A stretch of 64,000 nucleotides of DNA from Paludibaculum fermentans. GTDB lineage: Bacteria; Acidobacteriota; Terriglobia; Bryobacterales; Bryobacteraceae. This document shows, piece by piece, positions 1-52,104 of the stretch (position 1 is the first letter of the stretch; each line of letters opens with the position of its first letter). The translations under genes were made by a program, and so were the position numbers. Below the pieces are notes generated by a model. That model saw nothing but the letters and a program-made list of their open reading frames with translations, was not told where the DNA came from and did not search any database. The stretch covers positions 5,471,501 to 5,535,500 of the forward strand of contig NZ_CP063849.1 in NCBI RefSeq assembly GCF_015277775.1. Direction: 5' to 3'.

Positions 1-156
1 CTGGACGTCGTAGTGCAGGAAGCAGAACGACTGGCCGCCACCGTCGGTTGCGACGGCGAAGAGCATCTGAACCCATTGGAGGGTGGAGTAGCCGTTGACG
101 GTCCGGTAGACGCCATTGAACGTCTGAACGCCGCCGGAGCCGGTTTCGGGCGAGAC
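1..156 (-). repeat. Truncated copy of the GGGQPFC-VHYD module at the end of the RCC1 protein
   Basis: Translation of the last visible codons gives VSPETGSG, then LQWVQMLFAVATDGGGQSFC and FLHYD before the sequence ends. This matches, residue by residue, the start of the module repeated in the two secreted proteins at 48.3-52.1 kb (VSPPSGAG, then LGWAQMLFAVATDGGGQPFC and FVHYD). The first of the two conserved cysteines is at 22-24; the second would lie outside the window. Confidence 0.85.
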
Positions 157-3100
157 CGACATGGTGGTGACCGGCAGAAGGATGCCAGGCTGCAGCAGAC
201 CCTGGACGCCAGAGGTGCTGGTGGCCGGGGAAGCGATGCCGAACTGGCCGAACGAGTTGCTGCCCCAGCCGCGGACGAAGCCGTCCGTCTTCCAGCCGAT
301 GCTGTGCGTGCCGCCGGCCGCGATGGCCAGGCCGCCGTACATGCCGACGGTCATCGTGGGGACAAAGCGAGTGGTGTTGGTGGTGTCGCCCAATTGGCCG
401 CTGGTGTTCAAGCCCCAGGCCCAAACGGAGCCATCCGCCTTCAGTGCCAGACTGTGAGCGTTGCCGGCCGAGATAGCCACAACCCCGGTCAGCCCGTCCG
501 CGCGGGAGAGGGTGACCCGGTTGCTGCTCGTGCCGTCTCCAACCTGGCCGGAAGTGTTGAGACCCCAGCCCCAAACGGTTCCATCGCTTCTCAGCGCCAG
601 TCCGTGGGAAGCGCCGGCTGCGATGGCGATAATGCCCGCGAGTCCGGGGACCTGGACGGGCGTCAGTTTCCTGGTCAGGGTGCCGTCGCCCAGCTGTCCG
701 CTGGTGTTGTTACCCCAGGACCAAACCGTACCGTCGGACTTCAGCGCAAGGCTGAAGCCGTCGCCGGCGGCCACGGAAACCATGCTGGTGAGGCCGGTGA
801 CCTGGACAGGCGCGAGGCGGGTGGACTGAGTGTTGTCTCCGATCGCACCATTTGTGTTCGCGCCCCAGGCCCAAACCGTACCGTCGCTCTTGCGGGCCAA
901 GCTGTGATCCTTGCCGCCGGCAACCCGCGTCACGCCGGTCAAGCCGGTGACGGTGACTGGCGACAGGCGGGTGGTGGAGGAACCATCACCCAACTGGCCG
1001 GTCGAGTTGAGGCCGAAGCTGCGGACCGTTCCGTCCTTCAGAACCACAAGGGTATGTGACCAGCCCGCCGCTACGCCGAGGATGTTGGTCAACCCGGGGA
1101 CCTGCACCGGCGTGGGGCGGTCGGTGGTGGTGCCATCGCCGAGTTCGCCGTTCGCATTGCCGCCACTGCCCCAGAGGGTCCCATCGTTATACAGCACCAG
1201 GGAGTGATCCTGGGCCGCCGCCAGGCGTTGCCCCAGCGTGCTGGGCGTCGGCGCCGGGTAGAAGCAGGGTGTTTCCGCCGCCGTCACGGCGAAGGTGTTG
1301 AAGTAGGGAGTCGCGCTGCCGCGGCCCAGTTCGCCGCGTTCGTTGTCGCCAGCGGTGATGACGCTGCCGTCCGAGAGGCGGATCAGGCTGTGGAAGGCGC
1401 CGGCGCCGGCGGCAACCGCCGTGGTTACGCCGCTGACGGCCGTCGGAACCAGAGCGTCAGAGAAATTGCCCTGTCCGAGAGCGCCGTAGACGCTGTAGCC
1501 CCAAGTCCAGGCGGTACCGTCGGACTTGATGGCAATCGTGTGATAGCCTCCACCGGCGATTTCCGTCGCGCCGGTCAGCGTGCCGGAGCGCACGGGAGCA
1601 GACTTGGCGACCAAAGTGTTGTCGCCCAACTGGCCGTGATTGTTCGCACCCCAGGCCCAGACTGAACCATCGAGCTTCACCGCAATGCTGTGGAAGCTGC
1701 CCGCTGCGACGGTTTCCGCCACGAAGCTGAGAATGGCTTTCGGCGTGAGGCGGGAAGTAGTGGTGCCGTCGCCCAGCTGGCCAACCGTATTGAGGCCCCA
1801 GGCGTAGACCGTGCCGTCGCTCTTGCGCGCCAAGCTGTGGGAGTCGCCGGCGGCGATTGCCGTGATGCCGGTGAGTCCGGAGACCTGTACCGGGCTCTGC
1901 CGCGTGGTGGTCGAGCCGTCACCCAACTGGCCCGCGCCGTTGAAGCCCCAGGCCCAGACGGTGCCGTCGTTCTTCAGCGCCAGGGTGTGATACTGGCCCG
2001 CGGCGACTGCAATGACGCCAGTCAAGCCGGGCACCATAATCGGCACGCTGCGGCTGGTATTGATCGAGGCGCCGTTGCCCAACTGGCCCTGTCCGTCGTC
2101 GCCCCATGTCCAGACCGTTTGATCCGATCTGACGGCCACACTGTGATTGGAGCCAGTGGCGACCGAAATGACGCCAGTGATGGCAACGCAGGTGGGGTCC
2201 AGGCGGGCGTGGACGGTTCCGTCACCCAACTGTCCATACTGATTCTCACCCCAGGCGCTGACCGAGCCGTCGGCCTTCAGCGAGATGCTGTGGTTGGCGT
2301 AGCCGCGGAGTGTGCCGGTGTTCGCACCAATTGCCTTGAGAGGACCACTGGCGGCCGATACCGCGGCCAGCGTAGTACCGTTCGCAGCCAGCGCCCGGTT
2401 GGCCCTGATGGCCGAGGCGGTGGCGTTCTGGGATTCAATCGAGGCCGCATCGGCGGAGATGACCGCCACGGCCCAACCGGCTTTGGCATCGAGTACGACG
2501 CCATCAAACTGATATTCGCTGTTCGTCCCGTCCTGGATGAGGGTCAAGGTGCTGTTCACGGCGGTCACTGACCGCGACGTGAGCGAGTTGCCCAACCATT
2601 TGGCGTCCACCAGGGGGCTCGGATCTTCCTGCTGGAACCGGCGCTTCAGCTCAGCGGAGCTCTTCGTCAGTTCGTCGCCGCCCAGGATGCGAGCGGAGGA
2701 GGATTCAGACCGGCCGTCAGTACCCCAAGCCCAAACTTGGCCCTGCGCGTCACGGGCGTAACCAAGGTTTCCGTACACGGCCACGGCCTCGATGCCGGAG
2801 AGTCCCTTCACCTGCATGGGTGAAGAGATCAGCTTGCGCGACTCGCCGGGGACAATGCCGTTCCAGTTCGAACCGAAGGCCCAGACCGTGCCATCGGCGC
2901 GTAGCGCGATGGAGAAGAGCTGGCCGGCGGCGATCATGCGGACGTTCGTCAACCCGGGGACAACCCCGGGGACAGCGCGATTCGCCAGGGTGCCGCTGCC
3001 GAGCTGGCCTTCCGTGTTCGCTCCCCACGCCAAAATTGTTCCATCCTGCTGCAAAGCCAGGGAGTGCTGGGCACCCGCCGCGACAGCGGTGACGCCGGAA

Positions 3101-3432
3101 ACGCCGGCCACCTGACTCCATGTATTGCGCTGTTGAAGATCTCCAGTTCCTAGTTGTCCCTGGGCGTTGCTACCCCAGGACCAAACCGCCCCGTCCACGG
3201 TTCGAACCAGGATATGACCGCCGGTTTCGGGCACCGCCAGGTTCCGCGCCCCGGCGACTGTCCCGATGGAACGAAACGAGTACTGGGCGTTCTGCCCCGT
3301 ATTTTCCTGTAGAATCTGAATCCGTTCCGCACCTGACGCCTGCACTGATAGCGCAGCCAGTGTGAATACGGTCGCGACGATGCCTCCGGCTGTGGGTAAA
3401 CCCCTGAACAGTAGTGATTTGTGTTTGATCAA
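1..3432 (-). CDS. Secreted RCC1-repeat protein, 3' end beyond the window
   Basis: The frame was read directly from the minus strand in sections and stays open to the left edge, so only the first ~1144 residues are present. The start is a TTG at 3432 with GGAGGAG eight bases upstream. A signal peptide follows (hydrophobic TAGGIVATVFTLAALSVQA). About 18 RCC1 units of ~50 residues can be counted from the recurring WGxNxxGQLG signature, for example AWGENQYGQLGD near 2240. Four units lie N-terminal, a ~130-residue non-RCC1 insertion follows (about 2690-2300), then 14 more, enough for two seven-bladed propellers. The protein then changes into a different module at the left edge (see 1-156). RCC1 propellers are protein-interaction scaffolds; a surface or periplasmic role is inferred. 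Function is unknown. Confidence 0.85.
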   Translation of the reverse strand, partial: MIKHKSLLFRGLPTAGGIVATVFTLAALSVQASGAERIQILQENTGQNAQYSFRSIGTVAGARNLAVPETGGHILVRTVDGAVWSWGSNAQGQLGTGDLQQRNTWSQVAGVSGVTAVAAGAQHSLALQQDGTILAWGANTEGQLGSGTLANRAVPGVVPGLTNVRMIAAGQLFSIALRADGTVWAFGSNWNGIVPGESRKLISSPMQVKGLSGIEAVAVYGNLGYARDAQGQVWAWGTDGRSESSSARILGGDELTKSSAELKRRFQQEDPSPLVDAKWLGNSLTSRSVTAVNSTLTLIQDGTNSEYQFDGVVLDAKAGWAVAVISADAASIESQNATASAIRANRALAANGTTLAAVSAASGPLKAIGANTGTLRGYANHSISLKADGSVSAWGENQYGQLGDGTVHARLDPTCVAITGVISVATGSNHSVAVRSDQTVWTWGDDGQGQLGNGASINTSRSVPIMVPGLTGVIAVAAGQYHTLALKNDGTVWAWGFNGAGQLGDGSTTTRQSPVQVSGLTGITAIAAGDSHSLARKSDGTVYAWGLNTVGQLGDGTTTSRLTPKAILSFVAETVAAGSFHSIAVKLDGSVWAWGANNHGQLGDNTLVAKSAPVRSGTLTGATEIAGGGYHTIAIKSDGTAWTWGYSVYGALGQGNFSDALVPTAVSGVTTAVAAGAGAFHSLIRLSDGSVITAGDNERGELGRGSATPYFNTFAVTAAETPCFYPAPTPSTLGQRLAAAQDHSLVLYNDGTLWGSGGNANGELGDGTTTDRPTPVQVPGLTNILGVAAGWSHTLVVLKDGTVRSFGLNSTGQLGDGSSTTRLSPVTVTGLTGVTRVAGGKDHSLARKSDGTVWAWGANTNGAIGDNTQSTRLAPVQVTGLTSMVSVAAGDGFSLALKSDGTVWSWGNNTSGQLGDGTLTRKLTPVQVPGLAGIIAIAAGASHGLALRSDGTVWGWGLNTSGQVGDGTSSNRVTLSRADGLTGVVAISAGNAHSLALKADGSVWAWGLNTSGQLGDTTNTTRFVPTMTVGMYGGLAIAAGGTHSIGWKTDGFVRGWGSNSFGQFGIASPATSTSGVQGLLQPGILLPVTTMSVSPETGSGGVQTFNGVYRTVNGYSTLQWVQMLFAVATDGGGQSFCFLHYDVQ

Positions 3433-3637
3433 TCTGACTTCTCCTCCGCCCCGCACACTCAAGAACCGCTCTGAGGGTAGGCACACCTCCCCCAGGCAAT
3501 CAGTATAAGGTTAATCGCTGTGCCCGGGCCTGTCAATTGAGGGCCTTACCAGTACGGCACAGTATTCCGCCTAAACAATACGGAGTGAATTCAGAATGAT
3601 CCGGCTTTCGCCGTGGCAGAAATGGCGAAATACCGCG

Positions 3638-5635
3638 TCAGCGGACGCGGCTCCGGCGGCGCACCGGCTCAGGTTCCGTGAGATGGCCATTCATCAGCCA
3701 GAACGAGCAGCCGTCCGCGTTCAAAATCCCCCGGCCGTGCAGAAAATGAACTGGCAAAAACGGCTTCCAACTGGAATTCCAGAGCAGAAAAGCGGCCAGC
3801 ATATACTGTTCGTTGTAGTAACGAATGTCAAAATGCTCGGGGTACTCTTCAGGCAAATAGATATCGTGAACGTGCACCAGCACGCCCTTGGGCAGCATGG
3901 GCATGACGCGCAGGAAGAAGTGCGTGACGTCGGAGTCGTGGAAGCAGATATGGCTGCCGTCGAAGAAGACGAAGTCGCCCGGCTGCAGGCTGGCGAAATA
4001 CTCCAGCGGCGTGGCGATCAGGCTCTCCTCGCGCACCTCGTCGGCCACGGCTTTGATGGACAACCGGGGGGACGGGTCGATGCAGGTGATCTGCGTCTTG
4101 AGCTTCCCGTCGCGAATCGCCTTGCGCAGGAACCGGGTGCTGTTCCCGCTGCCGATCTCGACAATGCGGCCCGGCACGTAGGCCCGTATCAGCGCGTAGG
4201 CGGCGCGCGCGTCCATCCCGGTAAAGAAGATGTTCTTCCAGAACGGCGAGACCTCGTCGGTGGGATCGGCCAATTCGTCGGCTACGTCAGGCAGTTCCAG
4301 GAACGGCTCGAGCCGGGTGTGGAGCTCCTCATACGCCCAGATCCTGGTCTCGAGCAGTGAGGTGATGGCGGCGTAAGGGTCGCGGCCCTTTTCCCGGGGC
4401 ACGACTTCTTCGTAGTCGATTGGGACAATCAGCGCCGGCACATTGGTTTGCGGCATCAACGTACGATTCTGGTAATCGACGAAGCAATAATGCTCCAATA
4501 CCAACGCTTTGATGTAGGCCAACTCCTCCTCGCAAGGGGGACCCGGCGGTACATAGGGTGCAATCTCCTCGGCGGGAGGCTCACCGATCTCAGCCAATTC
4601 GCCCGACTCTCCGACGGACGCTTCCCCTTCGGGCGCGGGCTCCTCGCTGGGTAGGGCAGCTTCTAATATGGGTTCCGGCTCGGGCTCCTCGATGGGGGCG
4701 GGCGGGGGTTCAGGCTCCTGGATGGGCGGGGGGGCTGGTTCAGGGTCCGCGACGGGCGGCGGCTCCGGAGCCGGCTCCTCGACGGGGGTGGGCTCTTCGA
4801 CGGCAGGTTCCTCGACGGCGGGCTCCTCGATTTCGCCAGCCTCCACGGGCGGCGCAACCAGTTCCGGATCCGGTGCGGGATCGTTGAGGTGAACGGCTCT
4901 CAGGTTGAGACCGGATTCGTAGGCGGCAATGACCTCTTCGATGGGGCCATCCATGCGCAGTACGCCCTCGTCCAGCCAGATCGCGCGCTGGCACAGCTCC
5001 CGAACCGTCGCGGCGGCGTGGGAGACGCACAGTATCGTCTTGCCGGCCTGGTGCAGCTTGTAGATGCGTTCGACACATTTGTCCTGGAAGGCGCGGTCGC
5101 CCACGGCAAGAACCTCGTCGATGATGAGGAAGTCCGGGTCGACACAGACGGCGACGGAGAAGGCCAGACGCATCACCATGCCCGACGAGTATGACCGGAC
5201 AGGCTCGTGCACAAAATCGCCGATTCCCGAGAACTCGATGATTTCGTCCATCAGCTCTTCGGTCCGCTGGCGGGAGACACCCAGGACGGAGGCGTTCAGG
5301 TGGATGTTTTCTATCCCGGTCAGGTCGGAATGGAAACCGGAACCGAGCTGTAGCAGGGCGGCACCGCGGCCGTTGACAATGATCTGCCCGGAGTCGGGAT
5401 CGACCAGGCCGGCGACGAGGCCGAGCAGGGTACTTTTGCCCGCGCCATTGCGGCCGATGATGGCGACGCTTTCGCCGGGGTTCACTTCGAACGAGACATC
5501 CCGCAGCGCCTGAAAGCGCTCCGGCCGATGCCGCGTCATCAACTCCTTGAGGTGACTGCGCAATAGCCGCCGGGGCTTGTGCATGACAAAGCTCTTGGAG
5601 ACGTTTCGGACGGTGACAATGGGTGAAGTAGTCAC
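3638..5635 (-). CDS. Polysaccharide ABC exporter ATPase (Wzt-like) fused to a class I methyltransferase
   Basis: The N-terminal ~250 residues are an ABC ATPase: Walker A GRNGAGKST (about 61-69), signature YSSGM (~149), Walker B FLIIDEVLAVGD (~169) and H-loop VSHA. A ~110-residue Pro/Glu-rich linker (~253-363, repeated EEPAVEEP and PEPPP units) follows. Residues ~480-640 resemble a SAM methyltransferase, with motif I VEIGSGNSTRF, an FFDGSH strand and VHVHDI, as in the Methyltransf_24 family. Ordinary Wzt proteins carry a glycan-binding C-terminal domain instead. The GTG at 5635 lies five bases after the permease stop and gives a normal Wzt start; a TTG at 5671, overlapping the permease, is the alternative. 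Neither has a good ribosome site. Likely role: energising glycan export, possibly coupled to chain capping by methylation (inference). Confidence 0.85.
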   Translation of the reverse strand: MTTSPIVTVRNVSKSFVMHKPRRLLRSHLKELMTRHRPERFQALRDVSFEVNPGESVAIIGRNGAGKSTLLGLVAGLVDPDSGQIIVNGRGAALLQLGSGFHSDLTGIENIHLNASVLGVSRQRTEELMDEIIEFSGIGDFVHEPVRSYSSGMVMRLAFSVAVCVDPDFLIIDEVLAVGDRAFQDKCVERIYKLHQAGKTILCVSHAAATVRELCQRAIWLDEGVLRMDGPIEEVIAAYESGLNLRAVHLNDPAPDPELVAPPVEAGEIEEPAVEEPAVEEPTPVEEPAPEPPPVADPEPAPPPIQEPEPPPAPIEEPEPEPILEAALPSEEPAPEGEASVGESGELAEIGEPPAEEIAPYVPPGPPCEEELAYIKALVLEHYCFVDYQNRTLMPQTNVPALIVPIDYEEVVPREKGRDPYAAITSLLETRIWAYEELHTRLEPFLELPDVADELADPTDEVSPFWKNIFFTGMDARAAYALIRAYVPGRIVEIGSGNSTRFLRKAIRDGKLKTQITCIDPSPRLSIKAVADEVREESLIATPLEYFASLQPGDFVFFDGSHICFHDSDVTHFFLRVMPMLPKGVLVHVHDIYLPEEYPEHFDIRYYNEQYMLAAFLLWNSSWKPFLPVHFLHGRGILNADGCSFWLMNGHLTEPEPVRRRSRVR

Positions 5636-5640
5636 AGCGG

Positions 5641-6405
5641 TTACAGGTAGTCGTAGAACTGACGTTTCCAATGCCGGAAGGTGAACGACCCGACGGCTAA
5701 AGTGCCGAATGAGACCAGGGCAAGTTTCAGCAGCAGCTCACCGGACGGAGCCACGCCCTCTAAAAGGATATTCCGGGAAGCAAGCACCAGCGCAGCCACC
5801 GGGTTGTACTGATACAAAGGCTGGAGTTGCGGGGGGATTGCGCTAAACGGGTAGAAGATAGGGACCAGCCAAAACATGACTAGGTTGACTGACTCCACAA
5901 CGTAGCGCGTATCCCGGATGAAGACGGCGAGCGTTCCCGTGATCAGGCCCAGGCCGCAGACAAAGGCGATCTCCAGGCCCCAGACCACCGGCAGCAGGAG
6001 CCAGTAGCGATTGACGCCATAGCCAAAGAACAGGACCAAGGCGAAGAGCAAAGCCACCTGCGCAGCCATGTTCAGCGCCGTCGAGAGCACAGCCGTGAGC
6101 GGGATCATCTCGCGCGGCACATTGACGCGCTTGATGAAATCGGCGCTTTCCACGATGGAGGCGCTGGAGGTGGCCCAGGCGAGGCTGAAGAAGTTGTAGG
6201 GCACCATGCCCGTCAGGACAAAGACCGCGAAATGATCGACGGTCTTGTTCGGGAAGATCATGGTGAAGACAAAGGTGAGAATCCCCATCATCACCAGGGG
6301 ATTCAGCAGGGACCACAACATGCCCAGGGACATGTTGCGATACCTGACCTTGAAGTCCTTCAGGACCAGGTTCCGGACGAGATACAGCAGGTCGCCTCGC
6401 CACAT
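5641..6405 (-). CDS. ABC-2 type polysaccharide export permease (Wzm-like)
   Basis: 254 residues, the usual size for Wzm/KpsM-type permeases. The N-terminus has the amphipathic entry typical of the family (LVLKDFKVRYRNMSLGMLWS), followed by about six hydrophobic segments (e.g. LVMMGILTFVFTMIF and AALNMAAQ-type helices) and a C-terminal basic tail FRHWKRQFYDYL. It sits directly upstream of its ATPase partner. The pair would form an inner-membrane exporter of an undecaprenyl-linked glycan made by the glycosyltransferases upstream in the same direction. The ATG at 6405 has only weak ribosome-binding complementarity. Confidence 0.9.
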   Translation of the reverse strand: MWRGDLLYLVRNLVLKDFKVRYRNMSLGMLWSLLNPLVMMGILTFVFTMIFPNKTVDHFAVFVLTGMVPYNFFSLAWATSSASIVESADFIKRVNVPREMIPLTAVLSTALNMAAQVALLFALVLFFGYGVNRYWLLLPVVWGLEIAFVCGLGLITGTLAVFIRDTRYVVESVNLVMFWLVPIFYPFSAIPPQLQPLYQYNPVAALVLASRNILLEGVAPSGELLLKLALVSFGTLAVGSFTFRHWKRQFYDYL

Positions 6406-6482
6406 AAGTCCGCTAGAGTCCGCTCTTTGGCCCGGTCAGCCTCGTGGTGCCGGGAACCCGGCCGCGCCTCGGCCCGGCGGGG

Positions 6483-7424
6483 CTAGACATTTGAATATCT
6501 CCGGGCTCTGAGGATCGTGAATGCCTTTTTGAGTTCATTGATACCCTCCGGCAGCGAGACCGCCGGCTGGAAGCCAGTGGCTTCAATCTTCGCATTCGAA
6601 ACGATGTAATCACGCTTGTCCGGATCTTCGCCTATGGGCGCCTCCAAATAGGAGAAGCCCGGAATCAGCTTCTTGATCTCCGCGCACAGCTCGAGCTTGG
6701 ACAGATTGGCGTCGCTCAGGCCGACGTTATACGGCTGCTCCTTCATGGCGTCGAAGCGCGCCATCACATGTTGGAAGGCGCGCGCCACATCGCGGATGTG
6801 GATGTAGTTCCGCTTGAAGTGGCCCTCAAAGATCACCAGCGAGCGGTCGGTGACGGCGCGGTGGACGAAGTCGTTCACCAGCAGGTCGATGCGCATGCGG
6901 GGGGAGACGCCGAACACGGTCGCCAACCGCAGGGAGACGCCGTTGCCGGCATCCAGCACCTGCCGCTCGGCTTCCACCTTGTCCCTCGCGTATTGGGAGA
7001 TCGGCTTGAGCGGAGACTCTTCCGTACAGTAATTCGATGCTTCTCCAACTCCGTAACCGCTGTTGGTGCAGGGATAAAGGATCCATTGCTGCTTGGACCG
7101 CAGCTTCAGCAGCGATTGGATGCCTTCCAGGTTGGTGGTCCGGGCCGCAATGCGGTCAGCGTCGCAGACCGGCGCGCCCACCAGGGCCGCCAGGGCGATG
7201 ATGATGTCGGCGGAACCGATGGCGTCGCGCAGCACCCGTTCATCCCGGCAGTCGCCGCGAATGATCTGAAAGTCGGGATGCCAGCAGTTCTCCAGGAGAC
7301 TGGGCTGGCCGTACAGGAAGCTGTCGAGCACCGTGACGGCAAAGCCGGCATTGAGAAGTTGCGGCGTCAAAACCGAGCCGATGTAGCCCGCGCCGCCAGT
7401 GATGAGTACTTTTGCTTGAGCCAT
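6483..7424 (-). CDS. NAD-dependent epimerase/dehydratase (extended SDR)
   Basis: 313 residues. The N-terminal Rossmann motif is ITGGAGYIGSVL (residues ~8-19), followed by DSFLYGQPSL and a GDCRD turn typical of extended SDRs. The catalytic YxxxK is in QYARDKVEAE (~150), with a Ser/Thr-rich NSGYG segment before it. The substrate is presumably a nucleotide sugar, given the glycosyltransferases and exporter on either side; the exact substrate cannot be read from sequence. It lies 21 bases after the glycosyltransferase stop at 7446 and appears to be cotranscribed with the ABC exporter genes downstream. The 77 bases before the permease hold a palindrome (6449-6462, GCCGGGAACCCGGC). Confidence 0.85.
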   Translation of the reverse strand: MAQAKVLITGGAGYIGSVLTPQLLNAGFAVTVLDSFLYGQPSLLENCWHPDFQIIRGDCRDERVLRDAIGSADIIIALAALVGAPVCDADRIAARTTNLEGIQSLLKLRSKQQWILYPCTNSGYGVGEASNYCTEESPLKPISQYARDKVEAERQVLDAGNGVSLRLATVFGVSPRMRIDLLVNDFVHRAVTDRSLVIFEGHFKRNYIHIRDVARAFQHVMARFDAMKEQPYNVGLSDANLSKLELCAEIKKLIPGFSYLEAPIGEDPDKRDYIVSNAKIEATGFQPAVSLPEGINELKKAFTILRARRYSNV

Positions 7425-7445
7425 GGTTGGATGTCATCCGGGCGG

Positions 7446-10624: not shown

Positions 10625-10759
10625 TGAACTGATCTTTTTACCTTTTCAATTGAACACTACGCGAGCATCCGCCTAGCTCGCAGTGCAGCGGGAGAAGGAG
10701 GTCCATGATATCATAATTAACTGTTGCTACCCCACCGCCCTCCGTGGCGGCAGAGCCTC

Positions 10760-11704: not shown

Positions 11705-11723
11705 CCGGCGGGGAGGTCTCCCG

Positions 11724-12497: not shown

Positions 12498-12501
12498 GTC
12501 C

Positions 12502-14249: not shown

Positions 14250-14261
14250 ATCAGACCCGGA

Positions 14262-18492: not shown

Positions 18493-18514
18493 GGAATGAA
18501 ACCCCTGTGGACGC

Positions 18515-19912: not shown

Positions 19913-19925
19913 CGTGTTCAAGGGA

Positions 19926-20264: not shown

Positions 20265-20280
20265 TCGATTACGAGTGTCG
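20259..20280 (-). promoter_or_regulatory. Candidate PadR operator over the transcription and translation start
   Basis: Imperfect palindrome with arms CGACACTCG and CGAATGTCG around TAAT (8 of 9 arm pairs match). It covers the predicted +1 and the start codon, where a bound repressor would block initiation. PadR proteins bind dyads containing TGT/ACA-type half-sites, which these arms contain. Confidence 0.55.
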
Positions 20281-20282
20281 TC

Positions 20283-21482: not shown

Positions 21483-21507
21483 CGTTGGTCCTTCCAGGAA
21501 GAGTCGA

Positions 21508-31877: not shown

Positions 31878-31925
31878 GTCTGAGTACGCAATGGCGTCGA
31901 ACGCCGGTTAACCGGATAACGGAAC

Positions 31926-34266: not shown

Positions 34267-34385
34267 GAATTTCTACGTCGAAACAAGGTTTGGGCAATGA
34301 GCATGTATGCACACGGGAAGGCGCCTCTTCGCCGTGCGCGTTGGTTGAGATCTCGACTGGTCTTGTCGCCCGGGGCCGCCACCGC

Positions 34386-39570: not shown

Positions 39571-39574
39571 AAGG

Positions 39575-41956: not shown

Positions 41957-41986
41957 GCTTCCTCTTCCTTCATTTCGCTCACGCGC

Positions 41987-44389: not shown

Positions 44390-44680
44390 ATACCGCTCCC
44401 TAACCGCCGGCCGGTTCCGCCGAAAAATCTCCAATACTGAAGGTAAGTCGTCATTTATCAATCGCTTCGGCGTGATTCGAAAACGTGGCGAATCGCCCGT
44501 CCGGGCATAGCTCACGCTCTGTGAGTCCCGAAATTCCGGCCCGGAACTCGTGGACCGTTTGGGTGGAACCCGTTACGCCTCTTTCACCCAAGCTTGCAAG
44601 TACAGGGCCAAGTCTGGCGTGGACACTGGCGTCGCCTGATCACTTGGAAGCACTCCGGCAAGGCCAGCCAATGGCGTCCC

Positions 44681-44703
44681 CCAAAGGCATGACATGCCTT
44701 GGC
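44681..44703. repeat. Operator-like palindrome
   Basis: AAGGCATG and CATGCCTT are perfect reverse complements around a single A; with one extra A allowed, the arms extend to CCA(A)AGGCATG and CATGCCTTGG. It sits about 290 bases upstream of the Wzi-fusion start on the minus strand and could bind a dimeric regulator of the exopolysaccharide operon. Confidence 0.5.
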
Positions 44704-45126
44704 TTGGTCACCCACTGCGCAACGCTGCTCCTTCAGGCATTATCCATTTCCCGCACAAATACCCGCAACCAAACAATTGTCAATTCTTCATTAATCTGTT
44801 GAATACAATCGTCCAATTCCTGTCATGCAAATGCAGCCGCGCGGCGCCCCCCCGCTCATCCTGGCGGCCCGGAACTACTGCGCGTGATTCTCCGCCCGCA
44901 CCGCCGGGCCGGCCCCCTGTCCGCCCCTTTGGCCTTGATATTGCTTAACTTAGCCCTGGGAGGATGCGGCAGAATGACAACCACGGGAGCACTCGGCCAG
45001 GGCGGCCCCGCCTCGCGCCGTAACCTCTTGAATTAACTTCACTCGTGGTCAACTCATCCCGCCGTCCCCGTGCCCGGCCGGTCGGTTACTGGAATACTAT
45101 GCGATTGGTAAAATTTACTTAATTCA

Positions 45127-45165
45127 AGACTGATTGGAAGTTATTTCCACACTCCCAATTAGTCT
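45127..45165. repeat. Inverted repeat in the AT-rich part of the intergenic region
   Basis: AGACTGATTGG (45127-45137) pairs with CCAATTAGTCT (45155-45165), ten Watson-Crick pairs and one G-U, across 17 bases. Either a regulator site or an RNA hairpin; no T-run follows, so it is not a terminator. Confidence 0.45.
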
Positions 45166-45324
45166 GTCCGGTATTTTACACAGCCCGGCCGCGGCTTCCA
45201 CCCAGTGCTTCAACCCGTCCATCCCCCACCCCGGCTGTCATACACGCCCACCCCGCCCGCGGATCTTCGCCCGTTGCTCACCCCTGCTCTCGCACACCCA
45301 AACTGCCGCCCCGCGTAACCTACT

Positions 45325-45396
45325 TGGGGACAACTGCGCCCGTAATAGATTCAGGTCCATGCCGTAGGCGTGGACTGCGGCCTTACTCTGTCCCCA
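45325..45396 (+). promoter_or_regulatory. Nested-stem leader element before the sugar isomerase gene
   Basis: An outer perfect stem TGGGGACA (45325-45332) / TGTCCCCA (45389-45396) encloses a nine-pair hairpin GTCCATGCC (45355-45363) / GGCGTGGAC (45367-45375) with loop GTA and one wobble pair. The element ends 36 bases before ATG 45433, in leader position. It could be a cis-acting RNA or a composite protein site; I cannot match it to a known riboswitch. Confidence 0.45.
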
Positions 45397-45432
45397 CAGG
45401 CAGGTAGTTTTTAACGTACTGAAAGGACTAAT

Positions 45433-46446
45433 ATGCAGTTCACACGGCGAGACATGGCCAGGTTCGCACTCGCTTCCGCTCCGCTAGCCACGGCACTGGC
45501 CGCAAAGAAGATCAATTCCAAGTTCGGCGGCGTGCAAATCGGCGCTATCACGTACAGTTTCAATCGCATCGCCAGCCCCGACGCCGAAGCCATCATCAAG
45601 GCCTACGTCGAGATCGGCCTCGGCGAAGCCGAACTCATGTCGAATCATTGCGAAGCCCTGGCCGGCGCTCCGCCCATGCCCAACTTCTTCCGCCCGGCCC
45701 CGCCCCGTCCTCCCGCCGGCAGCCCGCCCGCCGCTGCAGCGACCAAAGGACCCGGACCCCGCCCCCAACTCACCCCCGAGCAGATCGCGGAACGCAAGGC
45801 AGCCCAGGAAAAGCTCGTCGCCTGGCGCGGCACCACCACCCCCGCCACCTGGAAGGCCGTCGCCAAGAAGTTCAACGATGCCGGCATCGACCTCGCCCTC
45901 CTCTGCTACAACATGCAGGACTCCATGAAGGACGATGACATCGAGTTCGGCTTCCAGATGGCCAAGGCCCTCGGCGTCAAAGGCATCACCACCAGCACCA
46001 CCCTGACCATGGCCAAGCGCATCGCGCCCTTCGCCGACAAGCACAAGCTCCTGGTCGGCTACCACGGCCACGACGCCACCAACGACCCCAACCAGACCGC
46101 GACGCTCGAGAGCTATCAGACCCTGATGGCCTACGGTAAGTACAACGGCGTCAATCTCGACATCGGCCACTTCACCGCCGCCGGCTACGACGCCGTGGCG
46201 TTCATCAAGGAACACCACGCCAAAATCACCAACCTTCACATCAAGGACCGTAAAAAGGCCCACGGCCCCAATGTCGCGGTCTGGGGCACCGGCGACACGC
46301 CCATGAAGGAAGTCCTCCAGCTCCTCAAAGCGGAAAAGTATCCCATACCCGCCAATCTGGAATTGGAATACCCCATCCCCGAAGGCTCTGATATCATCGC
46401 GGAGGCCAAGAAGTGCCTCGCCTACGTCAAGAGTTGCCTGGCGTAG
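45433..46446 (+). CDS. Tat-exported sugar phosphate isomerase/epimerase-like TIM barrel
   Basis: 337 residues; AAAGGA five bases before the ATG. The N-terminus has a twin-arginine type signal (TRRDMARFALASAPLATALA). Barrel blocks: VQIGAITYSFNRIASPDAEA, LVGYHGHDATND, GVNLDIGHFTAAGYDAVAFI (metal-ligand Asp and His), ITNLHIKDRKK and NLELEYPIPEGSD (Glu). These are the AP-endonuclease-2/xylose-isomerase-like metal ligands. A Pro/Ala/Gly-rich stretch (~residues 84-115) interrupts the fold after the second strand. With the adjoining Gfo/Idh/MocA oxidoreductase, it probably acts on an oxidised (3-keto) sugar or inositol in the periplasm (inference). Confidence 0.83.
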   Translation: MQFTRRDMARFALASAPLATALAAKKINSKFGGVQIGAITYSFNRIASPDAEAIIKAYVEIGLGEAELMSNHCEALAGAPPMPNFFRPAPPRPPAGSPPAAAATKGPGPRPQLTPEQIAERKAAQEKLVAWRGTTTPATWKAVAKKFNDAGIDLALLCYNMQDSMKDDDIEFGFQMAKALGVKGITTSTTLTMAKRIAPFADKHKLLVGYHGHDATNDPNQTATLESYQTLMAYGKYNGVNLDIGHFTAAGYDAVAFIKEHHAKITNLHIKDRKKAHGPNVAVWGTGDTPMKEVLQLLKAEKYPIPANLELEYPIPEGSDIIAEAKKCLAYVKSCLA

Positions 46447-46494
46447 CCGGCGGCTTAAAAACAGTCTGGTTGTAGAATTCCACGGAGAATAAGT

Positions 46495-48078
46495 ATGGCT
46501 CACACAAGACGGCATTTCTTCTACGGCGCACTGCTGGCCGGGGCAGTCCCCACGGCCGGATTCGGCAGCGTTGCTTCCATGAAGTTCGCGGGCTATAAGT
46601 CCCCGAACGAGAAATTGAACTTCGCCGCGATCGGTTCCGGCGGCCAGGGCGCATCCAATCTGGGCGCCGCGGCCCCCACGGAAAACATCGTTGCCCTCTG
46701 CGACGTGGACGACCGCCGCGCCGCTCCCAGCTTCAATCGCTACCCCACTGCCACGAAGTATAAGGACTTCCGGCAGATGCTCGACAAGGAAGCCAAGAAC
46801 ATCGACTCCGTGATCGTGGCCACCCCCGATCACATGCACGCCACCGCAGCAATCTGGTGTATGGAGCGCGGCAAGAACGTCTACGTTCAAAAGCCCCTCG
46901 TCCGCACCATCTGGGAAGCCCGCCAGCTCCGCGCCGCCGCCGCCAAATACGGTGTCGCCACGCAGATGGGCAACCAGGGCTACTCCAATGAAGGCACCCG
47001 CCAGTGCGCGGAAATCGTGTGGAACGGCGACATCGGCGCCGTCAGCGAAGTCCATGCCTGGAGCGATCGCCCCCTCTGGCCCCAGGGCCTCACCGAAATC
47101 CCCAAGGAAGAGCCCGTACCCGCCACCCTCGATTGGGACCTCTGGCTCGGACCCGCGGAAAAGCGCCCCTTCACCGCCGGCGGCGCCACTGAACCCGACC
47201 GTTGGGGCGGCTTCTTCTATCAGCCCTTCAACTGGCGCGGCTTCTACGACTTCGGCTGCGGCGCCCTCGGCGATATGGCCTGCCACATCCTTGGCGCGCC
47301 CAATATGGCCCTCCACCTCTCCAAGCGCAAGATCGTCGGCGTCGAGTGCATTAAGAAGGAAGGCACCAGCCCCTTCATGTTCCCCAAGGTCTCCGTCATC
47401 CGCTACGACTTCGCGGCCTACGGCGACATGCCCGCCCTCAAGATCTTCTGGTACGACGGCCTCAAACAGAACCCCACCGTCCCCGGCGTCCCCGAGGGTG
47501 AGTGGATCGGCGATCCGCCCTCCATCGTCCGCAACCAGCCCGCCGGCGCGCCCGGCGCTGGTGGCCCAGGCGGCCCCGGAGCCCGTCGCCCAGGCGGCGG
47601 CCCCGGCATGATGCGTCCCGCCGGCAACGACTTCCACTCCCCCGGCCGCGTCTTCAACTACGACGACTTCAAGGCCATGAAGGATCCCGAAGCCAAGCTC
47701 CGCTTCCCCACCCCCGACGGCAGCGTCTTCCTCGGCGATAAGGGCGTCCTCACCACCGGCACCTACGGCGAAGTCACCCGTCTCCTCCCCGTCGAGAAGA
47801 TGAAGGACTACCAGATGCCCGCCCCGCTCCTCACCCGTTCGCCCGGCCACATGCGCGACTTCATCCGCGCCTGTAAGGGCGGCGACCCCGCCTGCTCCAA
47901 CTTCGACGTCGCCGCGCCGTTCGTCGAATGGATGCTCCTCGGTGTCATCGCGCTCCGCCACGAAGGCAAGCTCGAATACGACCCCGACAAGATGCGCATC
48001 ACCAATAACGTGGAAGCCAACAAACTCCTCAAGCCCGTCTTCCGCAAGGGCTGGGAATTCCACACCGTCAAGTCCTAA
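46495..48078 (+). CDS. Tat-exported Gfo/Idh/MocA-family oxidoreductase
   Basis: 527 residues, GGAG eight bases before the ATG. Twin-arginine type leader HTRRHFFYGALLAGAV. Rossmann core LNFAAIGSGGQGASNLGAAA, then VALCDVDDRR, SVIVATPDHMHATAAIWCME and the catalytic-Lys block GKNVYVQKPLVRTIWEARQL. C-terminal domain contains GCGALGDMACHILGAPNMAL with the conserved Asp and His. A Gly/Pro-rich insertion (AGGPGGPGARRPGGGPGMM) of ~35 residues sits near 350. It would oxidise or epimerise a sugar with bound NAD(P). 48 bases after the isomerase and ended by a strong hairpin, so the two form an operon. Confidence 0.87.
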   Translation: MAHTRRHFFYGALLAGAVPTAGFGSVASMKFAGYKSPNEKLNFAAIGSGGQGASNLGAAAPTENIVALCDVDDRRAAPSFNRYPTATKYKDFRQMLDKEAKNIDSVIVATPDHMHATAAIWCMERGKNVYVQKPLVRTIWEARQLRAAAAKYGVATQMGNQGYSNEGTRQCAEIVWNGDIGAVSEVHAWSDRPLWPQGLTEIPKEEPVPATLDWDLWLGPAEKRPFTAGGATEPDRWGGFFYQPFNWRGFYDFGCGALGDMACHILGAPNMALHLSKRKIVGVECIKKEGTSPFMFPKVSVIRYDFAAYGDMPALKIFWYDGLKQNPTVPGVPEGEWIGDPPSIVRNQPAGAPGAGGPGGPGARRPGGGPGMMRPAGNDFHSPGRVFNYDDFKAMKDPEAKLRFPTPDGSVFLGDKGVLTTGTYGEVTRLLPVEKMKDYQMPAPLLTRSPGHMRDFIRACKGGDPACSNFDVAAPFVEWMLLGVIALRHEGKLEYDPDKMRITNNVEANKLLKPVFRKGWEFHTVKS

Positions 48079-48103
48079 CCCATTCAGGTCCGGACCTTCG
48101 CAA

Positions 48104-48163
48104 CGGCCGGAGGAAGTCCAGGGCGCCCGCACTCGCGGCGCCCGCTCCCTCCGGCCGCTTTGC
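48104..48163 (+). terminator. Nested hairpin terminator of the isomerase-oxidoreductase operon
   Basis: CGGCCGGAGG (48104-48113) pairs perfectly with CCTCCGGCCG (48148-48157), and inside it GGGCGCC (48121-48127) pairs with GGCGCCC (48137-48143). The T-rich tract after it is short (CTTTGCGTTT). 26 bases after the oxidoreductase stop. Confidence 0.75.
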
Positions 48164-48265
48164 GTTTACTGCCCGATTTCCCGCCAAACTACCTGCGCCG
48201 GAAACCCGGGAATTCGCCAAATCAGGAACTCCTCGCACCGCTGAAGTCCATGCGACGACACTGAG

Positions 48266-48289
48266 TGTGCTATATCAGAGCTTGCATCT
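48266..48289 (+). promoter_or_regulatory. Extended -10 promoter and leader, copy A
   Basis: The 24 bases from TGTGCTATATCA to the TCT at 48289 match the stretch before the paralogous gene (49876-49899) at 21 positions. TGCTATATC fits an extended -10. Since the flanks differ, the conserved block is probably functional and not just recent duplication. Confidence 0.55.
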
Positions 48290-48307
48290 CTGTGGGAGGA
48301 TCGAGGA

Positions 48308-49762
48308 ATGCCTCTGGTCAAGGCTCGAAATTTCTTTTTGTGTGTGATTTGTTTATCCCTTGGGTGTCCTCTATTCGCGCAAAAAGAGCCTGAAAAACGG
48401 CCTTCCGGGCAGACGCTCGCCACTGCGACCATCAACGTATCCCCATACTCTCCCGGCATCTTCACCCTCAGCGGCGACGGCCACGGCCGGGCCAGGGCAG
48501 AGGACGCCGCGGGCTTCGCCCTCACCGACTCCCATCTCGCGGTCCCGGGTTCAGTCGTATCCATCTCCGCGACCGGCTTGGGCCAGACCGTGCCCCCCGC
48601 CGTCACCGGCCAGATCCCCGCGACGCCCCTCACCACCGCCGTCACCCCCCTCGTCTTCGTCGCCGGCCAGAAGGCCACCGGAGTCCTCGCCCAACTCTCC
48701 AGCACCTCCTTCGGCGTCTACAAGGTCACGTTCACGGTCCCTGCCGCGATCGGACCCGGCGAGCAGCCCCTCTTCCTCCAGATCGGCGCCTACTCCAGCA
48801 ACCTCGCGTCCATCCCTGTTCAGGGTGCCCTCGGCCCCATGCCGCCCACCGCCGACTCCGTCACCCCCGCGTCCGGCTCTGGCTCCAACCAGACCTTCTC
48901 TGCAGTCTATTCCGATCCCAACGGCACGCAGGATCTCGCCTGGACCCAACTCCTCTTCGCCGTCGCCCCCAACGGCGGCGGTCAACCCTTCTGCTTTGTC
49001 CACTACGACCGGGCCGGCAACGGCCTGTGGCTCTATGGCGACGGAGGCTTCTTCGTCGGCCCCGTTACGCCCGGCACAGTCTCGGCCGGTTTGAAGAACA
49101 GCGCCTGCGCCGTCAACACCAGCGCCACAACCATCACCCAGTTCGGCTCGGCCCTCACTTTAAACGCGCGCGTCGCCTTCAAGACGGGCTTCGCCGGACC
49201 GAAAAACATCTACCTGCGCGCCTACGACCGCTCCGAACAGGACACCGGTTGGCTCCATCGCGGGACAGTCGACGTCAACAATCCCACCCCGCCCATCCTC
49301 GCGGTCTCCCCACCCTCCGGAGCCGGCTCCGCCCAGATCTTCACCGCCAACTATCCCGACGCCCCCGGCTTCATCGGCCTCAGCCTCGGTTGGGCCCAGA
49401 TGCTGTTTGCCGTTGCCACGGATGGTGGCGGCCAGCCGTTCTGCTTCGTCCACTACGACCGTGCCGGCAACGGGCTCTGGCTCTATGGCGACAGCGGCTT
49501 CTTCCTCGGGCCCGTCACCCCCGGCGTCTCCTCCAACCTTCTCCAGAACAGCAGTTGTTCCATCGATACCGCGGCCACCACCGCGGGCAGCGTCAGCGGC
49601 GCCCTGGAACTCAGGCTCTCCGTTTTCTTCGGGCAGACCATGGCCGGTGCTCGAAACATCTATCTGCGCACCCTCAGCCCCATCGGCCTCGACACCGGCT
49701 TCCTCCCGGCCGGCACCTGGACCTCCACCGTCACAGCTGGCGACCACCCAGCCCCCATTTAG
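48308..49762 (+). CDS. Secreted protein: TIGR03437-like domain plus two GGGQPFC-VHYD modules (copy A)
   Basis: 484 residues; GGGAGGA seven bases before ATG 48308. Signal peptide (FFLCVICLSLGCPLFAQ). Residues ~35-172 match the C-terminal part of the Solibacter TIGR03437 domain (YSPGIFTLSGDGHGRARAED, VPGSVVSISATGLGQTVPP). Two modules follow at 185-321 and 333-471, each with GGGQPFCFVHYDRAGNGLWL, GPVTPG and a second Cys; the Cys pairs are C229/C267 and C379/C417. Compared with the next gene, about 110 residues after the signal peptide are missing. Function unknown; a surface or matrix protein is inferred from the signal peptide and repeats. Confidence 0.85.
   Translation: MPLVKARNFFLCVICLSLGCPLFAQKEPEKRPSGQTLATATINVSPYSPGIFTLSGDGHGRARAEDAAGFALTDSHLAVPGSVVSISATGLGQTVPPAVTGQIPATPLTTAVTPLVFVAGQKATGVLAQLSSTSFGVYKVTFTVPAAIGPGEQPLFLQIGAYSSNLASIPVQGALGPMPPTADSVTPASGSGSNQTFSAVYSDPNGTQDLAWTQLLFAVAPNGGGQPFCFVHYDRAGNGLWLYGDGGFFVGPVTPGTVSAGLKNSACAVNTSATTITQFGSALTLNARVAFKTGFAGPKNIYLRAYDRSEQDTGWLHRGTVDVNNPTPPILAVSPPSGAGSAQIFTANYPDAPGFIGLSLGWAQMLFAVATDGGGQPFCFVHYDRAGNGLWLYGDSGFFLGPVTPGVSSNLLQNSSCSIDTAATTAGSVSGALELRLSVFFGQTMAGARNIYLRTLSPIGLDTGFLPAGTWTSTVTAGDHPAPI
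48860..49720 (+). repeat. Two tandem copies of the 140-residue Cys-pair module
   Basis: Module 1 at 48860-49270 and module 2 at 49304-49720. Each opens with V(T/S)P-x-SG-x-G, goes through the GGGQPFCFVHYD core and GPVTPG, and closes with IYLR and DTG(W/F). Module 1 is closest to module 1 of the next gene and module 2 to its module 2, so the pair was duplicated as a unit. Confidence 0.85.
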
Positions 49763-49875
49763 GCGTACTCTTGCGCTCCCAATCGGGCCGTAAACCTTTG
49801 AAAGGTAAGAGTAGTACCATAATCCACCCTTAAGTCCCACTTAGATTTGAAATGACAGCAAGAAAAAGATCTTTT

Positions 49876-49899
49876 TGTGCTATATCAAAGATTGCGTCT
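49876..49899 (+). promoter_or_regulatory. Extended -10 promoter and leader, copy B
   Basis: Same conserved 24-base block as at 48266-48289 (TGTGCTATATCA, differing at three positions later). It is preceded by a perfect 14-base palindrome AAAAAGATCTTTTT (49863-49876), which copy A lacks. Confidence 0.55.
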
Positions 49900-49917
49900 T
49901 GGAGGAACGGCCGCCCC

Positions 49918-52104
49918 ATGAACCTGCTCAAAGTCCGGAGTGTCGTCCTATGCGCGCTCATCTCCTGCGCGGGCACAGCCCTTCTCGCCCAGTCCGCCGG
50001 CAGCCAATACCAATCCCGCCACTCGGGACCCGTCCCATTCCATCTGCCCACCGCCAACTCGATCAGTGAACAGGCTGCGGCTCTCATCTCCCCCCAGGCG
50101 ACCACCGCCGTCACCTCCGCCGTCAACGCCGCTTCCTTCCAGGACACCCACTCCCCCGGCGGACTCTCCATCCTCTACGGTTCAGATCTCGCTCTGCCCC
50201 TGCCCACCACCATCGTCACCTCGGTCAAGGCCAACGGCGTGGACGCCCCCATCCTCCAGTCCAGCCCCACCCAGATGACCATCCAGATCCCCAGGGAACT
50301 CTCCCCCGGCACCATCGACCTCACCATTCGCCGTCTCGGCCAAACTGTCGCCACCAAGTCCCTCAATCTCGCCCAGTTCTCGCCCGGGTTCTACACCGTC
50401 AATGGCACCGGCCAGGGCCGCGCGATCGCCGAGGATGCCGCCGGCGTTCCCATCACCGACTCACACCCCGCCGTTCCCGGCACCATGGTGTCCCTCTTCG
50501 CCACCGGCCTGGGACCCACCACACCCCCCGTTCCCACCGGCCAGATCCCGCCAACACCCCTCCCCACGACCATCACGCCCATCGTCGGCATCGGCAACCT
50601 CCCGGCCACCGGGGTCCTCATTCAACTCACCAACACCTCCCTCGGTGTCTACAAGGTCAGTTTCCTGGTGCCCGCCGCCACGGGTCCTGGCGAGCAGTCT
50701 GTCTTCCTCGCCAGCGGCGCCGTCAGCAATGTCGTTACCATCCCCGTCCAGGGCTCTCTCGGCCCCATGCCCCCCACAGCCGACTCCATTACCCCCTCCT
50801 CCGGCAGCGGCTCTACCCAGACCTTCACAGCCGTCTTCTCCGACCCCAACGGCGTCCACGACCTCGCCTGGGGCCAGATCCTCATCGCCGTCGCCGAGAA
50901 CGGCGGCGGCCAGCCCTTCTGCTTCATTCACTACGACCGCTCCGGCAACGGCCTCTGGCTCTATGGCGATCAGGGCTTCTTCCTCGGTCCCGTCACCCCA
51001 GGCACCGTCTCCGCCTCCCTCAAGAACAACGCCTGCGCCGTCAATACGAGCGGAGCCACCTTTGACCCCGCCGGCACCAGCCTTCACTTGAGCGTGCCCG
51101 TCTCCTTCAAAACCGGCTTCGCCGGATCCAAGTACACTTACCTCCGCGCCTACGATCACTCCGAACAGGACACCGGCTGGGTCCAGCGGGGAGCTTTCAC
51201 CGTCACCGATCCGCCCACCCCCGCCCTGTCCGTCACCCCCGCCTCCGGCTCCGGTGCGGTTCAAACCTTCACCGGAACTTACCCCGACGCCCCCGGCTTC
51301 ACCGGCATCAATCTCGGCTGGGCGCAAATGCTCTTCGCCGTCGCCACCGATGGCGGCGGCCAACCCTTCTGCCTCGTTCACTACGACCGCGCCGGCAACG
51401 GCCTCTGGCTCTACGGCGACAGCGGCTTCTTCCTCGGCCCCGTCACCCCCGGCTCCGTCTCCAGTTCCCTCCAGAACAGCGCCTGCTCCATCGACACCGC
51501 CGGCTCCTCCGCCGCCAACGTCAATGGGGCACTCGAATGGAAACTCTCCGTCGCCTTTAAGTCGGCTATCCTCGGAGCCCGCAAAATTTACCTGCGCACC
51601 CTCAGCCCCATCGGCCTCGATACCGGCTTCCTCCAATCCGGCTCCTGGACCATCGACGGCACCCCCGGAGCCCAGTCCCTCACACCCGGGTCCGGCACCG
51701 CCCACACCCAGGCCTTCACCGCCAACTTTTACGATCTCGATGGCGGCGCCCAGATCTCCTGGGCCCGCATTATGCTCGGGGCGGCCTCCAACGGCGGCGG
51801 CCAACCCTACTGCCTGGTGCACTACACGCGCGCCACCAACGCCATGTATCTCTTCGGCAGCGACGGCTCCGTGCTCGGCCCAGTCACCCCGGGCTCCATC
51901 GCGGCACCCATCGTGAACAGCGCATGCATGCTCATCCCCTCCGGCTCCGCTGTTTCCGTTTCGGGCAACACGCTCACCGTCACCGCCTCGCTCTCGTTCC
52001 TCTCCGCCATTCCGGCCAGCGTCCAGTCTTATCTGCGAGCCGTCGACGTCAACACGCTCGACAGCGGCTGGCAACTCCGCGGCAGCTTCAACCCCGTACC
52101 GTGA
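49918..52104 (+). CDS. Secreted protein: TIGR03437 domain plus three GGGQPFC-VHYD modules (copy B)
   Basis: 728 residues. ATG 49918 chosen because the signal peptide starts there (MNLLKVRSVVLCALISCAGT); GGAGG is 12 bases upstream, a long spacing. Residues ~60-278 form a full TIGR03437-type unit (AASFQDTHSPGGLSILYGSD, FSPGFYTVNGTGQGRAIAED, VPGTMVSLFATGLGPTTPP). Three modules follow at 291-429, 439-577 and 588-724, with Cys pairs C335/C373, C485/C523 and C632/C670. The third is the most diverged (QPYCLVHYTRATNAMYLFGS). Its stop overlaps the ATG of the ligase-like gene by one base, so the two are translationally coupled. Function unknown. Confidence 0.85.
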   Translation: MNLLKVRSVVLCALISCAGTALLAQSAGSQYQSRHSGPVPFHLPTANSISEQAAALISPQATTAVTSAVNAASFQDTHSPGGLSILYGSDLALPLPTTIVTSVKANGVDAPILQSSPTQMTIQIPRELSPGTIDLTIRRLGQTVATKSLNLAQFSPGFYTVNGTGQGRAIAEDAAGVPITDSHPAVPGTMVSLFATGLGPTTPPVPTGQIPPTPLPTTITPIVGIGNLPATGVLIQLTNTSLGVYKVSFLVPAATGPGEQSVFLASGAVSNVVTIPVQGSLGPMPPTADSITPSSGSGSTQTFTAVFSDPNGVHDLAWGQILIAVAENGGGQPFCFIHYDRSGNGLWLYGDQGFFLGPVTPGTVSASLKNNACAVNTSGATFDPAGTSLHLSVPVSFKTGFAGSKYTYLRAYDHSEQDTGWVQRGAFTVTDPPTPALSVTPASGSGAVQTFTGTYPDAPGFTGINLGWAQMLFAVATDGGGQPFCLVHYDRAGNGLWLYGDSGFFLGPVTPGSVSSSLQNSACSIDTAGSSAANVNGALEWKLSVAFKSAILGARKIYLRTLSPIGLDTGFLQSGSWTIDGTPGAQSLTPGSGTAHTQAFTANFYDLDGGAQISWARIMLGAASNGGGQPYCLVHYTRATNAMYLFGSDGSVLGPVTPGSIAAPIVNSACMLIPSGSAVSVSGNTLTVTASLSFLSAIPASVQSYLRAVDVNTLDSGWQLRGSFNPVP
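50788..52089 (+). repeat. Three tandem copies of the 140-residue Cys-pair module
   Basis: Modules at 50788-51204, 51232-51648 and 51679-52089. All keep GGGQP(F/Y)C, HY, GPVTPG and the second Cys at +38. The last has lost the GNGLWLYGD signature, reading NAMYLFGS instead, which suggests it is the oldest or least constrained copy. Confidence 0.85.

Follow-up and report, generated by a model that had tools for sequence, protein, structure and literature searches.

The window analysed here, a stretch of 64,000 nucleotides from the genome of Paludibaculum fermentans, carries several copies of a protein domain that recurs in this genome and that, in the form marked by the motif GGGQPFC, is usually found as a pair at the C-terminus, on a total of 28 mostly secreted-looking proteins. 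We propose that the domains form a family of immunoglobulin-like (Ig-like), probably single-disulfide extracellular domains of about 140 residues, and that the GGGQPFC pair would be a C-terminal tail by which these proteins bind or attach; the probability of this reading is put at about 0.45. The family is undescribed in the libraries and papers searched. Its kind is known, namely the Ig-like domains of bacterial secreted proteins, and its paired C-terminal use is unusual.

Copies of the domain in the window and in the genome

The window lies at 5471501-5535500 of contig C1, in a genome of two contigs and 9,532,094 bases. The original prediction, made from the letters of the window, was of a mobile module with a conserved Cys pair, present in five complete copies and one cut copy. 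The five complete copies were found on the plus strand between 48857 and 52092, in two proteins, and in all five the two Cys are separated by 38 residues, as predicted. The core sequence that they were thought to have in common is exact in both copies of protein 48308-49762 (GGGQPFCFVHYDRAGNGLWL) but differs at one or more positions in each of the three copies of protein 49852-52104 (FCFIHYDRSGNGLWL, FCLVHYDRAGNGLWL and YCLVHYTRATNAMYL). The cut copy is also present at the end of a protein with RCC1 repeats; its 53 residues include GGGQSFCFLHYDVQ and only the first Cys, and they are the start of a copy 1. In the genome this RCC1 gene is intact (L042:6791-11011, minus strand; L and G numbers denote our loci and genomes), and its C-terminal end consists of a complete copy 1 and copy 2. 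The recurring unit is therefore real, but the module as first delimited is merely the central third of a domain of about 140 residues that begins with S-V-x-P-x-S-G-S-G and ends with G-T-W-T.

A search of the genome with one copy detected 64 copies at E ≤ 0.01, the best non-self copy having an E-value of 5.4e-70, so the recurrence is far beyond chance. Iterated searches of the fetched stretches with hidden Markov models (HMMs) gave 65 domains in 31 open reading frames (ORFs); the additional domain is the cut copy of the window, part of the same gene as L042:6791-11011. Among the 28 proteins with the GGGQPFC form, 27 have exactly one pair of copy 1 and copy 2, and one (49852-52104) has three copies. 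One further protein (L041) has six copies, which belong to a related form lacking the GGG motif; a 100-amino-acid remnant of a copy-2-like domain (L047:9129-9428, minus strand) lies beside an intact module gene. In 29 of the 30 module ORFs, and in 27 of the 28 GGG proteins, the last copy ends no more than 5 residues from the stop; the exception is 48308-49762, with 12. Thus the domain does recur on differing partners, as originally claimed, but its normal use is as a fixed C-terminal pair.

The N-terminal parts of the proteins are diverse. Pfam matches at E ≤ 1e-5 were tallied for 28 of them, these being 27 of the 28 GGG proteins, the N-terminal part of L038 being too short, together with L041. 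Flg_new_2 (InlB-like repeats) was found in 15, RCC1_2 in 14, DUF11 in 9, DUF7948 in 3 and SBBP in 3. N-terminal leaders were judged by eye throughout. The module was present at 6 of 8 counted RCC1 loci, with 150 of 261 RCC1 candidates scored. One gene for an RCC1 protein with the module (L043:3598-7970, minus strand; chromosome about 5944.6-5949.0 kb) is apparently split into frames of 561, 252 and 876 amino acids, which appears to reflect a frameshift or a sequencing error.

The Cys pair

Conservation of the Cys residues was examined in 150 distinct, near-whole-model copies from the P. fermentans genome, other Acidobacteriota and a phage, with duplicates and partial copies dropped (among them the cut window copy, L047:9129-9428 and the first copy of the phage protein). 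Both Cys are present in 148 of these copies, and exactly two Cys in 147. One copy, in L061, has neither; another, in L038, keeps only the second, and the first copy of that same protein has five Cys. Both pairs are kept at L110, with three Cys per copy. In an alignment of 134 family members (the 150 copies minus 16 that were left out to keep the set small), the spacing is 38 residues in 63 rows, 39 in 42, 37 in 22 and some other value in 6. The Cys pair first noticed in the window is therefore maintained across the homologues and not lost in most of them. Since the two residues are kept together and lost together, each domain probably contains a single internal disulfide.

Predicted fold and comparison with known domains

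An AlphaFold2 model of the single domain, based on the 134 family members, had a mean predicted local distance difference test score (pLDDT) of 97.1 and a predicted template modelling score (pTM) of 0.91; it is all-beta, with eleven strands of at least 3 residues. When this model was compared with the PDB using Foldseek, none of 1753 matches reached E ≤ 0.001, the best being 3.7e-3. The best 50 of the 1753, with template modelling (TM) scores of 0.26-0.54 and 6-18% identity, were mostly antibody-type Ig domains, with three YcnI proteins and one sulfite dehydrogenase. The likeness to V-type Ig domains of antibodies and T-cell receptors in the PDB goes to a best TM (query) of 0.54, at a weak E-value and 6-18% identity. 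A comparison with viral proteins gave nothing at E ≤ 0.001 (best 1.6e-3). The model of the pair (pLDDT 95.6, pTM 0.85) suggests that the two domains may have a defined mutual orientation. With the pair, Foldseek gave a best E-value of 1.2e-6 and 690 matches at E ≤ 0.001; mostly two-domain antibody chains were seen among the best 50, with TM-scores of at most 0.31. In the canonical Ig domain the disulfide joins strands B and F. In our model, of 145 residues, the Cys are at residue 50, in a strand from 50 to 55, and residue 88, in a strand from 88 to 90. From these comparisons the domain is probably an Ig-like sandwich and the fold probably not a new one. The suggestion of a new fold was accordingly abandoned in view of the top Foldseek rows, which are mostly Ig domains, though no single-domain match was obtained at E 0.001.

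The original remark that no named domain was recognised stood up, in that neither the window copies nor the 134 family members gave a consistent or proper match in Pfam or NCBIfam. The nearest approach was Big_9 (PF17963), which gave weak matches in 14 of the 134 members with a best single-domain E-value of 0.0045. Its cut-off of 23.6 bits was exceeded just in two whole arrays, those of L041 (25.5 bits) and L086 (33.8 bits); the L041 match, at residues 1271-1329, straddles the copies at 1154-1289 and 1302-1437, and that of L086 covers 34 of the 89 profile positions. The present domain resembles Big_9 and its kin in probably being an Ig-like domain of secreted bacterial proteins, but differs from Big_9 by its conserved Cys pair and by the residues of the GGG clade described below. 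Sequence relatives in the PDB numbered zero for our profile A1 and two for profile A4, both weak matches to talin (E 0.044 and 0.18); these and other weak matches, including SMI1_KNR4 and cupin, were judged to be due to chance.

TIGR03437 (Soli_cterm, the Solibacter C-terminal domain) had been named as a partner of the module. It does adjoin the module in both window proteins, but the association is incidental, and a TIGR03437-linked module was rejected, because module proteins account for only 2 of the 39 TIGR03437 matches in the genome. Although it occurs in the same genome, it is a separate domain; its profile matched none of the 134 copies, and its matches in the window (residues 34-172 and 91-300) are all N-terminal to the copies. 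No paper turned up for the module's motifs or for TIGR03437/Soli_cterm, and among the papers listed no account of the present domain was found in the titles and the first part of the abstracts. The terms looked for in PMC3174227 were not found in it.

Inheritance of the pair and residues specific to the GGG clade

The GGG motif, which had been taken as the hallmark of the module, is real but marks one clade of a wider family. A comparison of the profiles of the GGG form and the other form gave a probability of 99.9 and an E-value of 8e-35, and in a tree of the 150 copies the GGG copies make up one clade of 64 rows (support 100/100). Within it, a clade of copies 1 (29 rows, 98/98) is separate from a clade of copies 2 (32 rows, 100/99). 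The copies 1 of the two window proteins form a branch of their own, and the window's third copy stands apart. The tree rests on 144 columns, so that many of its branchings lack resolution, and its bootstrap was still short of convergence. In the 27 two-copy proteins, distances among copies 1 and among copies 2 are correlated (r 0.658), a value equalled in 0 of 2000 shuffles. Copy 1 and copy 2 are 41% identical within the same protein and 40% identical between different proteins, as against 51% and 55% within the two positions. The separate clades, the covarying distances and the absence of any special likeness within a protein indicate that, most likely, a single duplication gave rise to the pair, which has since spread as a unit.

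The 64 GGG-clade copies were compared column by column with the other 86. Eight columns, including both Cys, are kept in both sets, and in eighteen columns a residue found in at least 85% of the GGG clade occurs in fewer than 50% of the other 86 copies. Numbered by HMM position, the residues of these eighteen columns include H49 and R121 (64 of 64 each), D51, W58 and F66 (63 each), D129, Y60 and W29 (62 each) and K109 (60). At the columns of H49, R121, D51, W58, F66, D129, Y60 and K109, no residue exceeds 29% among the other 86 copies. In the P. fermentans genome, the 28 copy-1 and 28 copy-2 domains have H49, D51 and R121 in every case, D129 in 27 and 27, and K109 in 28 and 26. The seven GGG-clade copies from other genomes and the phage all have H49, D51, W58, Y60, F66, R121 and D129; six of the seven have K109 and four have the GGG triplet. 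The window's third copy, in contrast to the pair, lacks D51, W58, Y60, D62, F65, F66 and K109. Because these conserved polar and aromatic residues vary freely in the relatives, the His, Asp, Trp, Tyr, Phe, Lys and Arg residues of the GGG clade are suggested to form a putative binding site.

Distribution in other genomes and on a phage contig

Genome-by-genome searches covered the Acidobacteriota, which, according to abstracts, are abundant in soils. At E 1e-5, profile A1 found the family in 118 of 200 genomes of the taxonomic family (Bryobacteraceae) and in 14 of 396 genomes of the phylum; profile A4 found it in 46 of 250 genomes of the class, and profile A3, at 1e-10, in 7 of 9 genomes of the genus. 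The phylum, family and class genomes were sampled from larger groups, and scoring took in the best 10, 20 and 16 candidates of each genome, respectively, so that the copy numbers are minimum values and some occurrences may have gone undetected. High scores in the genus were confined to G000 (63 matches), G538 (48, of which 42 exceed 110 bits) and G493, whose two copies above 130 bits belong to the GGG clade without having the motif. Two proteins with GGG-clade copies were also found in G530, from another genus. In the wider family 1-7 matches stand in tandem, mostly at intervals of about 146 amino acids; the array at L080 repeats that of G427. A scan of contigs with peptide patterns detected 10 loci, all from Bryobacteraceae, Bryobacterales, Terriglobia or Acidobacteri(ot)a; since the patterns were narrow, this sets no bound on the taxonomic range, and similar domains may exist in other phyla. 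No match to plasmids was obtained with two queries.

One viral contig encodes the pair. IMGVR_UViG_3300044821_000062 (41,078 bp; L090, L115 and L118), of which about 28 of 41 kb were examined, opens with part of a terminase large subunit gene, and a protein ending in copy 1 and copy 2 is encoded near this gene (Table 1). Matches to portal, head protease and major tail proteins, and weaker ones to a tape-measure protein, follow further along. In view of these matches the contig is taken to be that of a tailed phage, and the pair is evidently able to move and to be carried by a protein that a phage encodes and that is probably exported. In four scans of viral contigs no other one had a relative that was confirmed, and two queries of the form without GGG gave no confirmed match. 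The N-terminal part of the phage protein had no relative at E 1e-5 in the 200 family genomes, in a search run without a positive control. The phage protein is a candidate cargo gene that may alter the host surface.

Proposed role of the pair and alternative explanations

In the model that we favour, each protein would be exported together with its N-terminal part (RCC1 propeller, InlB-type repeats, DUF11 or TIGR03437), and the C-terminal pair would fold once out of the cytoplasm, each domain with an internal disulfide of its own. Both domains would bind a like surface or matrix ligand, probably a glycan. Contact with this ligand would be made through the shared His-Asp-Trp-Tyr-Phe-Lys-Arg-Asp residues, which are presumed to form one patch, and many different proteins would thereby be held at one place. 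In its general form, the proposal is that the pair probably gives these proteins a common means of binding something outside the cell. A more far-reaching version is considered unlikely. In it the pair, with a disulfide and one conserved site in each domain, would be a new Bryobacteraceae surface-attachment device by which each genome tethers some thirty unrelated secreted proteins to a single glycan of the envelope or matrix, and the phage would have captured it to place its own protein on the host surface. As our searches found no Pfam, NCBIfam or PDB-sequence entry for the domain itself, its recognition would let 28 proteins be grouped and tested together, and the binding behaviour of one pair would speak for all of them. 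The GGG clade also comes with a natural control in its relatives that have the Cys pair without the site residues, most of which are likewise lost from the window's third copy. Most surface proteins of Acidobacteriota are not known to have an assigned role.

Several observations weigh against a binding tail on exported proteins. Two short proteins that are nearly pair-only, L038:4260-5324 (plus strand) and its G538 counterpart L110:1346-2350 (minus strand), have no evident leader and fit poorly with an exclusively extracellular role. The C-terminal position is partly inherited in the P. fermentans genome, where it reflects the expansion of one pair, and among 35 further proteins with the stop in view the last copy lies within 5 residues of the end in 21, at 6-20 residues in 7 and at more than 20 in 7. 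In L111:1878-4334 (minus strand, G493) the usual order is reversed: a divergent pair lacking the GGG motif is N-terminal, and a right-handed beta-helix domain comes after it. The putative site is not invariant either; by eye, the first copy of the phage protein, too partial to be counted among the 64, has a His in the place of R121, and a G538 copy (L114), also outside the 64, lacks K109. Finally, no common neighbour gene was apparent in 19 stretches, with ORF starts judged by eye and ten neighbours checked against Pfam.

The domains could instead be generic Ig-like stalks or spacers, stabilised by the disulfide, that extend and protect the C-terminus, in which case the conserved residues would be needed for folding or domain packing. 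The predicted fold, the tandem arrays of the wider family and the confident relative orientation in the pair model would all agree with this. However, H49, D51, R121, D129 and K109 are near-fixed in both copy types and yet dropped by relatives of the same fold, and a spacer need not be C-terminal, as the pair is in 27 of the 28 GGG proteins; we regard a spacer as possible but doubtful. Another explanation is a sorting signal that a dedicated machine for export or anchoring would recognise, much like the C-terminal domain of the type IX secretion system (T9SS), which is a common C-terminus of many unrelated secreted proteins. The present pair resembles that domain (TIGR04183) in just this respect, it is inherited as a unit, and the proteins stop right after the last strand: in the P. 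fermentans genome [VIAL]P directly follows the domain in 25 of the 29 terminal copies and in none of the 34 internal copies. This difference is, however, confounded with the split between copy 1 and copy 2, and in the other genomes it is not significant (14 of 23 terminal versus 24 of 60 internal copies, p 0.14). Some proteins have further domains downstream of the pair, and two full Ig-like domains of about 140 residues are large for a signal, compared with the single short domain of the TIGR04183 profile (72 positions). A T9SS tail as such was rejected, since Por_Secre_tail (TIGR04183) has no match in the genome; as a control, the profile matched in 2 of 14 named genomes, exceeding its cut-off in 1. 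No machine was identified, and no search was aimed at its components. A sorting signal is accordingly less likely than a rigid Ig-like spacer, and we think it improbable. Least probable of all is a selfish-like spread, in which a host- or phage-borne C-terminal cassette recombined onto secreted genes with no common function and was retained for being harmless. The pair on the tailed-phage contig and the large expansion in just two of the genomes searched, G000 and G538, would be expected from such a spread, but specific residues and both Cys are near-fixed even though the copies average 40-55% identity, and we give it very little credence.

Features of the window and neighbouring genes

The positions of the domain copies and of the proteins carrying them are given in Table 1.

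Table 1. Location of domain copies and associated genes in the window and on the phage contig
Feature	Position	Strand	Remarks
RCC1-repeat protein, leader-like N-terminus (by eye), cut by window edge	1..3486	-	Pfam RCC1 families
First 53 residues of copy 1, RCC1 protein	1..159	-	HMM positions 1-53 of 139, independent E-value 2.6e-18
Protein with hydrophobic leader (by eye), partial TIGR03437 unit, copy 1, copy 2, then 12 residues	48308..49762	+	
Domain copy 1	48857..49273	+	Cys codons 48992 and 49106
Domain copy 2	49301..49723	+	Cys codons 49442 and 49556
Protein with leader-like stretch (by eye), TIGR03437 unit (residues 91-300), copy 1, copy 2, divergent third copy	49852..52104	+	
Domain copy 1	50785..51201	+	Cys codons 50920 and 51034; groups with copy 1 of neighbouring gene, 100/88
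Domain copy 2	51229..51651	+	Cys codons 51370 and 51484; copy modelled with AlphaFold2 (window:51223-51657)
Divergent third copy	51676..52092	+	Cys pair, H49, R121 and D129 kept
Wzy_C (O-antigen ligase-like) protein	52104..53987	+	Pfam PF04932, 37.4 bits against a cut-off of 31.7
Phage protein of 628 amino acids, leader-like N-terminus, ending in copy 1 and copy 2	L090:2254-4137	+	Three genes after terminase

The Wzy_C gene and the three-copy module gene overlap by a single base, the stop codon of the latter running into the ATG of the former (TGATG), an arrangement which suggests that the two may be translationally coupled. Wzy_C as an O-glycosylating partner of the module was set aside, no second case having been seen among the neighbours of module genes in the 19 stretches, as judged from ORF starts and ten Pfam checks. 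Also near the module genes of the window, at 55595-59389 on the plus strand, is a gene for a protein with a carboxypeptidase-regulatory-like domain and an OMP_b-brl_4 outer-membrane barrel.

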